Source: Ancylobacter polymorphus | GTDB taxonomy: Bacteria > Pseudomonadota > Alphaproteobacteria > Rhizobiales > Xanthobacteraceae | DNA: 64,000 nucleotides | NCBI RefSeq assembly: GCF_030813495.1 | Contig: NZ_JAUSUI010000006.1 | Location: forward strand, 124,001 to 188,000 | Direction: 5' to 3' | In this document: positions 11,726 through 13,915 of the stretch, in pieces | Layout of the letters: the number at the start of each line of letters is the position of its first letter | Position numbering within the stretch: position 1 is the stretch's first letter | The notes under the pieces: generated by a model | The model's input: the letters and a program-made list of their open reading frames with translations, nothing else | What the model was told of the DNA's origin: nothing | The model's database searches: none | Made by a program: the position numbers and the translations under genes

Positions 11726-13915
11726 TTGGCCCGGGCGAATGCGCAGGCGCAGAAGCCTCCCGCGCGGTTCGATGAGGTGGACGATGAGGCCGATCAGGCC
11801 GGTCAGTCCGCTCCGGTGCGTGGCGATGAAGAAATCCGCCGCCGCGCGCCCGAGGATGTGCGCCGCCGCCAGCTGATCGACGCCACCATCGATTCGCTCG
11901 CCGAGATCGGCTTCAACGCCTCGACCCTGGCGCAGATCGCCCGGCGGGCAGGCGTCTCGCCCGGTCTCGTCGCGCATTATTTCGGCGACAAGGACGGGCT
12001 CCTGGAGGCGACGCTGCGTCACCTCTCGCTGCGGCTCTACCGCGCCACCGCGCAGCGGCTCGCCGCCGCCGATACGCCGCGCGGCCGCGTTCAGGCGCTG
12101 ATCGACGCCAATCTGGCGCCGGAGGAATTCGACCAGCGCACGTCAAGCGTCTGGCTCGCCTTCTGGGGGCAGGTGCTGCATTCCGAGCGGCTGCGCCGGG
12201 TGCAGCGCATCTATCAGGCGCGCATGCTCGCCAATCTGCGCCACGATCTGCGGGCGCTGGTGGCGGCGGAAGATGTGCGCCGCCTCGCCATCACCATCGC
12301 CGCCGTCATTGACGGGCTGTGGCTGCGCTCCTCGCTTTCCGCCGCCGGCGAGACCGACTCGGTCAGCGCCCGGCAGGTTGCCTCGCTTTTCGTCGATGCC
12401 CAGATCGCCGCCGCCGCGCCGGCGCCCCCCACCAACGGACCCGCGACCATGACCAGCCGTCCCCCGCTGCACGCCAACCATATTGGCGGGCATTACCGCC
12501 CGCATGGCGGCGCCACCTTCACCACCGCCAACCCCGCCACCGGCGAGGTTCTGGCGGAGATCGAGATCGCCGGCGAGGCCGAGGTCGAGGCGGCGGTGGC
12601 GGCCGCGCGCACCGGCCAGAAGCGCTGGGCGGCGATGACCGGGGCCGAGCGCGGGCGCATTCTCATGCGGGCGGTCGCCCTGCTGCGCGACCGCAATGAC
12701 GAGCTGGCGCATCTGGAGACGCTCGACACCGGCAAGCCGATCCAGGAAACCAGCGTCGTCGACGTGCTCTCGGGCGCGGACTGCCTCGAATATTATGCCG
12801 GCCTCGCCGCCTCGCTCTCGGGCGAGCATGTCGATCTCGGCCCCAGCGCCTTCGGCTATACAAGGCGCGAGCCGCTCGGCATCGTCGCCGGCATCGGCGC
12901 CTGGAACTATCCCCTGCAGATCGCCTGCTGGAAATCCGCCCCGGCGCTCGCCTGCGGCAATGCGATGATCTTCAAGCCGGCGGAACTCACCCCGCTCACC
13001 GCGCTGAAGCTGGCCGAAATCTATGCCGAGGCCGGCGTGCCGGAGGGCGTGTTCAGCGTGGTGCAGGGCTTTGCCGATACCGGCCGGCTGCTCACCCGCC
13101 ACCCCGCCATCGCCAAGGTCTCGCTCACCGGCGAGGTCGGCACCGGCAAGAAGGTGATGGTGGATGCCGCCGGCACGCTGAAATATGTGACGCTGGAACT
13201 CGGCGGGAAATCGCCGCTCATCGTCTTCGACGACGCCGATCTCGACGATGCGGTGTCCGGCGCGCTGCTGGCGAATTTCTATTCCGCCGGCGAGGTCTGC
13301 TCCAACGGCACCCGCGTCTTCGTGCACGAAAAGGTGCGCCCCGCCTTCCTCGAAAAGCTGAAGGAGCGCGTGGCGAAGATGGTGGTGGGCGATCCGCTCG
13401 ACCCGGCGACCCAGGTCGGCGCGCTCATTTCGCCCGACCATATGGAAAAGGTGCTCAGCTACATCGAGAAGGGGAAGGCGGAGGGCGCGCGCCTGCTGGC
13501 GGGCGGCCACCGCGTCACCCATGGCGCGCTGGGCAAGGGCTGCTTCATAGCTCCCACCGTGTTCGACGGCTGCGCGGACGGGATGAGCATTGTGCGCGAG
13601 GAGATTTTCGGCCCGGTCATGGCCGTTCTGTCCTTCGAAGATGAGGACGAGGTGATCGCCCGCGCCAACGACACCGATTTCGGCCTCGCCGCCGGCGTGT
13701 TCACCAAAGACCTCGCGCGCGGCCACCGGGTGATCGCGCAATTGCAGGCCGGCACCTGCTGGATCAACGCCTACAACATCACGCCGATCGAGCTGCCCTT
13801 CGGCGGTGCCAAGCAGTCCGGCCTCGGGCGGGAGAACGGCAAGGCGGCGATCGAGCACTACACCCAGCTCAAGAGCGTGTATGTCAATCTCGGCCGCGTC
13901 GAGGCGCCCTACTGA
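11726..13915 (+). CDS. betI: BetI-BetB continuous frame: choline-responsive TetR repressor joined to betaine aldehyde dehydrogenase
   Basis: One open frame covers what are normally two proteins. AGGAGG at 11715-11720 lies 5 nt before the TTG at 11726, which is the best start; the GTG at 11720 overlaps the ribosome site. About 40 disordered residues precede a TetR helix-turn-helix (TLAQIARRAGVSPGLVAHYFGDKDGLLEA) and a BetI ligand domain ending near AVIDGLWLRSS. The frame then passes without a stop through an Ala/Pro linker into complete BetB. Removing one C from the C6 run at 12425-12430 would end BetI at a TGA overlapping the betB ATG (ATGA). So this is a true fusion, a slippage site or a one-base sequence error. 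Confidence 0.8.
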   Translation: MARANAQAQKPPARFDEVDDEADQAGQSAPVRGDEEIRRRAPEDVRRRQLIDATIDSLAEIGFNASTLAQIARRAGVSPGLVAHYFGDKDGLLEATLRHLSLRLYRATAQRLAAADTPRGRVQALIDANLAPEEFDQRTSSVWLAFWGQVLHSERLRRVQRIYQARMLANLRHDLRALVAAEDVRRLAITIAAVIDGLWLRSSLSAAGETDSVSARQVASLFVDAQIAAAAPAPPTNGPATMTSRPPLHANHIGGHYRPHGGATFTTANPATGEVLAEIEIAGEAEVEAAVAAARTGQKRWAAMTGAERGRILMRAVALLRDRNDELAHLETLDTGKPIQETSVVDVLSGADCLEYYAGLAASLSGEHVDLGPSAFGYTRREPLGIVAGIGAWNYPLQIACWKSAPALACGNAMIFKPAELTPLTALKLAEIYAEAGVPEGVFSVVQGFADTGRLLTRHPAIAKVSLTGEVGTGKKVMVDAAGTLKYVTLELGGKSPLIVFDDADLDDAVSGALLANFYSAGEVCSNGTRVFVHEKVRPAFLEKLKERVAKMVVGDPLDPATQVGALISPDHMEKVLSYIEKGKAEGARLLAGGHRVTHGALGKGCFIAPTVFDGCADGMSIVREEIFGPVMAVLSFEDEDEVIARANDTDFGLAAGVFTKDLARGHRVIAQLQAGTCWINAYNITPIELPFGGAKQSGLGRENGKAAIEHYTQLKSVYVNLGRVEAPY
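12449..13915 (+). CDS. betB: BetB, betaine aldehyde dehydrogenase (internal-start form)
   Basis: NAD(P)-dependent oxidation of betaine aldehyde to glycine betaine. From the in-frame ATG at 12449 the product has 488 residues, the usual BetB length. It has the Rossmann and Asn region GIGAWNYPLQIACWKSAPALACGN, the catalytic Glu in VTLELGGKSPLIVF and the catalytic Cys in FYSAGEVCSNGTRVF, all in normal order, and ends with the BetB tail GLGRENGKAAIEHYTQLKSVYV. It is joined in frame to BetI upstream (11726-12448). betA begins in the overlap TGATG at 13913-13917, so translation is coupled. Confidence 0.93.
   Translation: MTSRPPLHANHIGGHYRPHGGATFTTANPATGEVLAEIEIAGEAEVEAAVAAARTGQKRWAAMTGAERGRILMRAVALLRDRNDELAHLETLDTGKPIQETSVVDVLSGADCLEYYAGLAASLSGEHVDLGPSAFGYTRREPLGIVAGIGAWNYPLQIACWKSAPALACGNAMIFKPAELTPLTALKLAEIYAEAGVPEGVFSVVQGFADTGRLLTRHPAIAKVSLTGEVGTGKKVMVDAAGTLKYVTLELGGKSPLIVFDDADLDDAVSGALLANFYSAGEVCSNGTRVFVHEKVRPAFLEKLKERVAKMVVGDPLDPATQVGALISPDHMEKVLSYIEKGKAEGARLLAGGHRVTHGALGKGCFIAPTVFDGCADGMSIVREEIFGPVMAVLSFEDEDEVIARANDTDFGLAAGVFTKDLARGHRVIAQLQAGTCWINAYNITPIELPFGGAKQSGLGRENGKAAIEHYTQLKSVYVNLGRVEAPY

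Follow-up and report, generated by a model that had tools for sequence, protein, structure and literature searches.

A BetI-BetB fusion protein in Ancylobacter polymorphus as a likely enzyme and repressor of choline catabolism

The DNA analysed here, referred to as the window, is a stretch of 64,000 nt from Ancylobacter polymorphus (assembly GCF_030813495.1, contig NZ_JAUSUI010000006.1, positions 124,001-188,000 of the forward strand). Both the sequence as read and the list of open reading frames contain a single stop-free frame on the + strand, from TTG 11726 to TGA 13913-13915, in which a TetR-type repressor, BetI, runs through an Ala/Pro linker into a betaine aldehyde dehydrogenase, BetB. 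A first-pass annotation had described this uninterrupted frame and had proposed three readings for it, namely a true fusion in which a repressor carries the enzyme of its pathway, frameshifting that yields two products and, as the simplest, a homopolymer error in a run of six C (C6). The sequence, the Pfam domains and the joints of all 30 genomes examined from the genus confirm the continuous frame, and of the three readings it is the fusion that is supported, whereas error and frameshifting are not. The features of the fusion gene are as follows.

11715-11720, + strand: AGGAGG, likely ribosome-binding site of the fusion, read from the sequence
11726..13915, + strand: BetI-BetB fusion gene, 729 amino acids, calculated 77.8 kDa, probable TTG start, TGA stop
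11873..12010, + strand: TetR_N, DNA-binding part of the BetI half (residues 50-95, Pfam PF00440)
12077..12406, + strand: TetR_C_6, BetI-type C-terminal part (residues 118-227, Pfam PF13977)
12413..12469, + strand: Ala/Pro linker (about residues 230-248; predicted local distance difference test score, pLDDT, <50 at 237-243)
12425..12430, + strand: C6 run, found at the same place in 3/30 congeners, incidental
12437..12439, + strand: GGA codon for Gly, candidate element for internal ribosome binding, separated from the ATG by 9 nt
12449..12451, + strand: in-frame ATG, predicted internal BetB start (product of 488 amino acids, calculated 51.6 kDa)
12512..13879, + strand: aldehyde dehydrogenase half, Aldedh (residues 263-718, Pfam PF00171)
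13196..13198, + strand: Glu491 in the ELGGKSP motif (alignment column, codon checked)
13298..13300, + strand: Cys525 (alignment column, codon checked)

The AGGAGG stands at a normal spacing from TTG 11726, and the alternative GTG at 11720, which is the choice of the open-frame list, overlaps it. Both halves score above the cut-offs of curated models: the BetI half reaches 209.3 bits against 201.3 in TIGR03384 (betaine_BetI), combines TetR_N with the BetI-type C-terminal TetR_C_6, and is the only match in the genome above the BetI cut-off, the next scoring 98.3, while the enzyme half reaches 699.2 against 668.6 in TIGR01804 (BADH) and 818.4 against 593 in NF009725. A Pfam scan of the fusion protein found no domain beyond TetR_N, TetR_C_6 and Aldedh. 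The Cys, Glu, Asn and Lys that we take to be the catalytic residues of BetB are all present in the window protein, where Glu491 and Cys525 are presumably the catalytic Glu and Cys of aldehyde dehydrogenases, and in 186 of the 195 fused proteins compared; the nine odd ones include P0118 (588 amino acids), which is devoid of part of the enzyme half. Moreover, purifying selection acts on both halves across loci L001-L008, with nonsynonymous over synonymous divergence (dN/dS) of 0.038/0.34 for BetI and 0.044/0.31 for the aldehyde dehydrogenase, and both halves look functional by these sequence measures. An AlphaFold2 model of the window protein (mean pLDDT 80.3, predicted template modelling score, pTM, 0.64) consists of two folded halves joined by a stretch of low confidence. 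A fold search with this model and a search of solved structures returned only aldehyde dehydrogenases among the 50 and 60 matches listed, respectively, and neither is informative about the join or the BetI half. The calculated mass of residues 1-241 is 26.3 kDa.

The joints of betI and betB in close relatives, the comparison suggested by the first-pass annotation, were examined in 61 genomes, comprising the source genome, 29 others of the same genus and 31 further ones. In each of the 30 same-genus genomes both halves lie in a single frame free of stops, with no separate betI stop, and the matches, at 80-100% identity, span query residue 38 or earlier to residue 729; among the 31 others, G030 is fused too, and the rest have no match across both halves among the matches listed. 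The C6 run and the off-frame TGA overlapping the BetB ATG were borne out at their positions, since in the ATGA at 12449-12452 the ATG lies in the fusion frame and the TGA one base off it. A C6 at the same place is kept only in L001, L003 and L007; in L010 a C6 occurs further on, past the ATG, and other congeners have sequences such as CTCCC, CCCTCC or CTTTCC in its stead. What is conserved at the joint is the GGA at 12437-12439 and the ATG at 12449-12451, not the C6.

A homopolymer error, in which the true C run would be one base shorter and betI and betB would be separate genes, draws on the fact that the alternative frame gives an ATGA junction, the style of 4 of the 15 separate betI-betB pairs examined (L139, L145, L149, L174). 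It is refuted because the join is open in all 30 congeners, 27 of them without a same-place C6, and its likelihood is vanishingly small: L003 and L007, from other genomes, share both the C6 and the frame, the join is also open in 78 of 80 further loci (best of 447), and four congeners contain neither an ATG or GTG start nor the N-terminus of BetB. Programmed frameshifting at the C6, which would produce BetI alone in addition to the fusion, could exploit a plausible slippery run with an other-frame stop close by, but slippage is highly improbable because so few congeners (3/30) keep this run. As judged from these comparisons, the C6 is incidental and the open frame is real, with no sequencing error.

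Fused loci occur beyond the genus. When GTDB genomes were scanned with a BetI alignment and the best 80 of 447 relatives were kept, all of these loci proved to be of the fused type, 78 of them open across the join (4 of these reach a contig end). As similarity to BetI was the basis of the choice, the scan establishes fusion among the nearest BetIs but gives no overall frequency of fusion. The loci include metagenome-assembled genomes (MAGs) labelled Gammaproteobacteria, Steroidobacteraceae and Caulobacterales. Two MAG loci, L056 and L092, are of the fused type with a frame broken inside the enzyme half, through error or decay. In a protein search, all 120 listed of 2838 matches (clustered at 90%) contain TetR_N, TetR_C_6 and Aldedh, and the sources among the matches listed are Ancylobacter, Starkeya, Azorhizobium, Kaistia, Aureimonas, Methylobrevis, Hartmannibacter, Acidisoma and Segnochrobactrum. 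UniProt entries named 'Multifunctional fusion protein' (Starkeya, Ancylobacter, Azorhizobium and others) have the same architecture, the name being a database label only. In a class-wide sample of 385 genomes, 49 of which have a strong BetB match (E <= 1e-150), eight matches span both halves, three of them stop-free (own genome, G415, G416) and five with intervening stops.

Quick IQ-TREE trees, with Shimodaira-Hasegawa-like approximate likelihood ratio test (SH-aLRT) support only and E. coli as outgroup, place the fused forms together. In the BetB tree (110 of 154 loci, leaving out near-duplicates, truncated rows and the Kaistia loci L041, L042 and L152, whose enzyme half is altered), 73 fused rows lie in one clade (SH-aLRT 99) with one unfused row, L156, inside it; the placement of L156 could reflect a reversal, a transfer or a misplacement. 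In the BetI tree (93 rows), 78 fused rows form one clade (SH-aLRT 99). Of the separate pairs, L131 is the closest to the fusions in the BetB tree, and L131 and L142 are the closest in the BetI tree. The betI and betB genes of L131 occupy a common reading frame and are separated by a single TGA and 21 nt. The fusions sampled probably go back to one event, in which the stop between neighbouring betI and betB genes was lost; a single stop loss would be the simplest origin. The earlier remark on an ATGA overlap style thus fits the ancestry insofar as 4/15 separate pairs overlap in this way, and does not fit L131. A slower evolution of BetI after fusion was considered, as at 65-70% BetB identity the BetI identity is 60.9% in fused pairs and 43.7% in separate ones; this comparison was not used because the 80 loci had been chosen by BetI similarity.

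The gap upstream of the fusion, which separates it from divergent choline transporter genes, contains two putative operator boxes. These and the neighbouring choline genes are listed here.

11491..11508, no strand: BetI-type box 1, TTTGAACAGCTATTCAAA, on the choX side of the gap
11679..11696, no strand: BetI-type box 2, ATTGTACAGCCATTCAAT, a short way upstream of the fusion gene
13915..15585, + strand: betA choline dehydrogenase (TIGR01810, 816 bits against a cut-off of 732.1), overlapping the fusion stop by one base
10373..11353, - strand: choX choline-binding protein (TIGR03414, over cut-off), divergent from the fusion
9350..10201, - strand: choW permease (TIGR03416, over cut-off)
8150..9346, - strand: choV ATP-binding protein (TIGR03415, over cut-off)

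Visual inspection of the upstream regions of 24 loci, that of the window included, yielded the 18-bp pattern WTTG-N8-TTCAAW. Within the 64-kb window it occurs at two places only, both in the region that parts choXWV from the fusion, giving three strand hits against 0.04 expected, an expectation that flatters the result because the two sites of the window helped to make the pattern. Among fused loci, counted in 112 of 113 after leaving out one with <300 nt upstream, the exact pattern is found upstream in 78, and it is also found in 8 of 17 loci marked as separate and in none of 110 coding controls. A matrix trained on 30 loci of the window's genus scores at least 9 bits upstream of 82/82 other fused loci, 0/82 coding controls and 1/82 shuffled upstream regions, and at 18 bits it still recovers 66/82; the 82 test loci are not all independent, since 13 belong by name to Ancylobacter and a few others nearly duplicate training loci. 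With the same matrix, ten separate loci score 9.0 to 26.8 bits and the region upstream of E. coli betI scores 22.6. Two box sites are present at 90/112 fused loci when the matrix is built from all fused loci. The boxes of the window are 188 bp apart. DNA looping with helical phasing of the boxes was tried as an explanation of their spacing and was not supported, as the distinct spacings are without a 10.5-bp phase (R 0.09) and a free period search over 24 hand-copied spacings gave p ~0.36. A sigma-70 promoter scan of 11340-12500 found none.

Such boxes also occur in systems in which the two proteins are separate. In E. coli betIBA (L154), the same two families occur in the same order with the same box type in the betI-betT gap, but betI and betB are distinct genes there, parted by a stop and intergenic bases. 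In the two-BetI system of Ruegeria pomeroyi, as far as the available part of the report goes, the alphaproteobacterial BetI1 binds a palindromic betI box, ATTGACG*CGTCAAT, and choline relieves this binding; the window box resembles this footprinted box, whereas BetI is there a protein of its own, with no fused form mentioned in that part (PMC12442346).

A genuine and inherited fusion that acts as the enzyme and also represses both its own operon and the divergent choline transporter is the probable reading of the locus, held with fair confidence. In the absence of choline, the TetR half, as a dimer, would bind the boxes and repress choXWV and betIB-betA; with choline bound, the repressor would be released and the same polypeptide would oxidise betaine aldehyde. 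Every full-length enzyme molecule would also be a repressor, and the genes would be shut as choline runs out. In most congeners, ribosomes would in addition start at the linker ATG (GGA-N9-ATG here), and the free BetB thus produced would bring the enzyme into excess over the repressor; some lineages have no linker start and appear to rely on the fusion for all of their BetB.

The prediction of this second product comes from the linker, where an in-frame start at the place of the BetB start is present in 26 of the 30 congeners (25 ATG, 1 GTG). The upstream Gly codon is GGA in 25 of these 26, as compared with about 3% of other Gly codons (62/2064), and the next-best of 63 Gly columns reaches 42% GGA, these other columns being the fair control because the rows are related. 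Since the GGA codon is conserved and not the residue alone, it points to a ribosome-binding element, and free BetB is probably also made in the start-bearing congeners. The two products that the first-pass annotation had ascribed to frameshifting are thereby retained as a prediction, with an internal start inside the fused frame as their source. The other four congeners (L027-L030) have neither an ATG or GTG start nor the first strand of BetB; three of them have no start codon near the joint and L028 has only a TTG there. Members from Azorhizobium, Kaistia, Aureimonas and gammaproteobacterial MAGs are mostly without a comparable start, and many are without the first strand of BetB. Under a loose rule (any start, duplex <= -3 kcal), applied to a linker table of 109 of the 113 fused loci, the four that fail the motif not being scored, 51/109 have a start with a ribosome-binding element. 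The start trait changes at least five times on the tree (70 rows), a count that cannot separate gain from loss.

The same data bear on the possibility that the gene is fused but its parts are what matters, either through cleavage of the linker or because the internally started BetB performs all of the catalysis and the full-length protein serves only as a repressor. The linker is variable and predicted to be loose, and the start signal is widely conserved in the genus, as this would require. Nevertheless, it is decidedly unlikely in view of the congeners and of the more distant members that have no such start, and of the catalytic residues, which are kept in all compared fusions except the Kaistia group described below and one truncated protein. 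As these residues are kept in fusions without a start, the fusion itself likely carries the activity there.

Eight Kaistia-type proteins (L041, L042, P0068, P0073, P0084, P0090, P0097, P0117) have an altered enzyme half, here called dead: the columns of Cys and Asn are altered or gapped in 8/8, Lys in 6/8 and Glu in 4/8, and ELGGKSP is altered in 8/8. Aldedh is still recognised, at 240-370 bits, in the five such proteins scanned, and the AlphaFold2 model of the K. granuli form (mean pLDDT 80.0, pTM 0.60) also has two folded halves with a loose stretch between them. The loci of these fusions are the following.

L041, 3950-5989: Kaistia granuli fusion with altered enzyme half
L042, 3980-5971: K. 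adipata fusion with altered enzyme half
L152: Kaistia fusion with altered enzyme half

In L041 and L042, choXWV lies beside the fusion (68-79% identical to that of the window) with no betA there, and in L152 choX and the start of choW adjoin the fusion in the available piece, again with no betA. The L041 and L042 genomes contain no other close BetB, the next best being 39-41%, and the 74% betA of K. defluvii and G451 is missing in the three dead genomes and in K. terrae (best 42-50%). K. terrae (L040) has an intact enzyme half and no close betA ortholog in its genome (best 50%); it is possibly the step before the dead forms. The boxes of the dead forms are strong (24.0-31.5 bits). Against the active locus L039, the dN/dS of BetI in the dead Kaistia loci is 0.068/0.62, 0.12/0.73 and 0.084/0.51, and the BetI half looks to be in use; that of the dead enzyme half is 0.24/0.75, 0.58/0.93 and 0.32/0.69, compared with 0.037/0.64 for an active pair, and by this measure the dead half is under relaxed selection. 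It is stop-free all the same, whereas a half free of constraint would have been expected to gain some 7 to 17 nonsense changes, a very rough figure that puts all pairwise changes on the dead branch. The dead half would be either needed by the BetI half or slowly decaying.

Two further explanations meet at this point. The joining may have been neutral, each half working as before, uncoupled and with no gain, since one event suffices and a separate pair such as L131 needs only the loss of its stop; the fast evolution of the dead Kaistia halves is what a decaying relic would show. This explanation is somewhat unlikely, given that the fusion persists in members sampled from several families, the BetB tree containing one possible loss, and that the Kaistia enzyme half stays in frame despite its lost catalytic residues. 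Alternatively, and only tentatively, the enzyme half could have a regulatory role, either reporting the state of the pathway (nicotinamide adenine dinucleotide, NAD, or betaine aldehyde) or building an oligomer that grips both boxes; such a role might have outlived catalysis in Kaistia, leaving a TetR repressor that carries a pseudo-aldehyde-dehydrogenase sensor, and the linker start of Ancylobacter might then set the ratio of free enzyme to enzyme-repressor.

Several observations weigh against the enzyme-repressor fusion proposed above or narrow it. The exact box pattern is missing upstream in 34/112 fused loci, and the mutual placement of the halves is not fixed in the window model, given its pTM and the part of the linker with pLDDT below 50. 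The internal start is a sequence signal, and its GGA would be a weak ribosome-binding element; in addition, 15.7% of 7455 six-codon windows of the enzyme half pass the loose rule (4.9% with ATG alone), and single GTG or TTG calls are therefore weak. The fusion is rare in the class sample, being found in 3/49 strong-BetB genomes (own included) against 30/30 in the genus, and it therefore looks uncommon in the class yet fixed in the genus. Choosing the 80 loci on BetI similarity could have left independent fusions elsewhere undetected. Finally, in the quick BetB tree the unfused L156 (G399), on a long branch of 0.65, is nested within the clade of fused rows, and the genus of the window is not recovered as one group.

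Further downstream, 16815-27038 contains etf-like genes, an oxidoreductase of old yellow enzyme (OYE)/FadH type and a GbcB-like reductase, all below curated cut-offs. These genes look like a glycine betaine degradation island beside the bet genes and would fit choline catabolism rather than mere osmoprotection. An open frame of 396 amino acids at 23896-25086 on the + strand has no NCBIfam match at 1e-20.

Catabolic enzymes that act as their own repressor are best known from PutA. According to the part of the source available, trifunctional PutA of the E. coli type has an N-terminal DNA-binding domain on a catabolic enzyme with an aldehyde dehydrogenase part, an arrangement that the fusion described here resembles. 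PutA represses its own gene and that of the substrate transporter, and it combines a ribbon-helix-helix domain, a flavin-dependent proline dehydrogenase and membrane switching (PMC5293562). In the fusion, a whole TetR-type repressor is set on BetB, and ribbon-helix-helix and proline dehydrogenase domains were not found by Pfam; the counterpart of the autogenous repression of PutA would be the predicted boxes between the fusion gene and the divergent transporter. No report of a BetI-BetB fusion was found in the open-licence literature searched, including the available parts of PMC12442346 and PMC7824335. If the proposed role is true, the fusion would be a second self-repressing catabolic enzyme, of separate origin and made of a whole TetR-family repressor and an aldehyde dehydrogenase. 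Separate pairs, fusions with and without a predicted internal start, and fusions with a dead-looking enzyme half provide natural controls, and therefore the gain from tying a repressor to the enzyme of its pathway would be directly testable. What appeared to be an assembly error in the frame is a conserved protein of many species.

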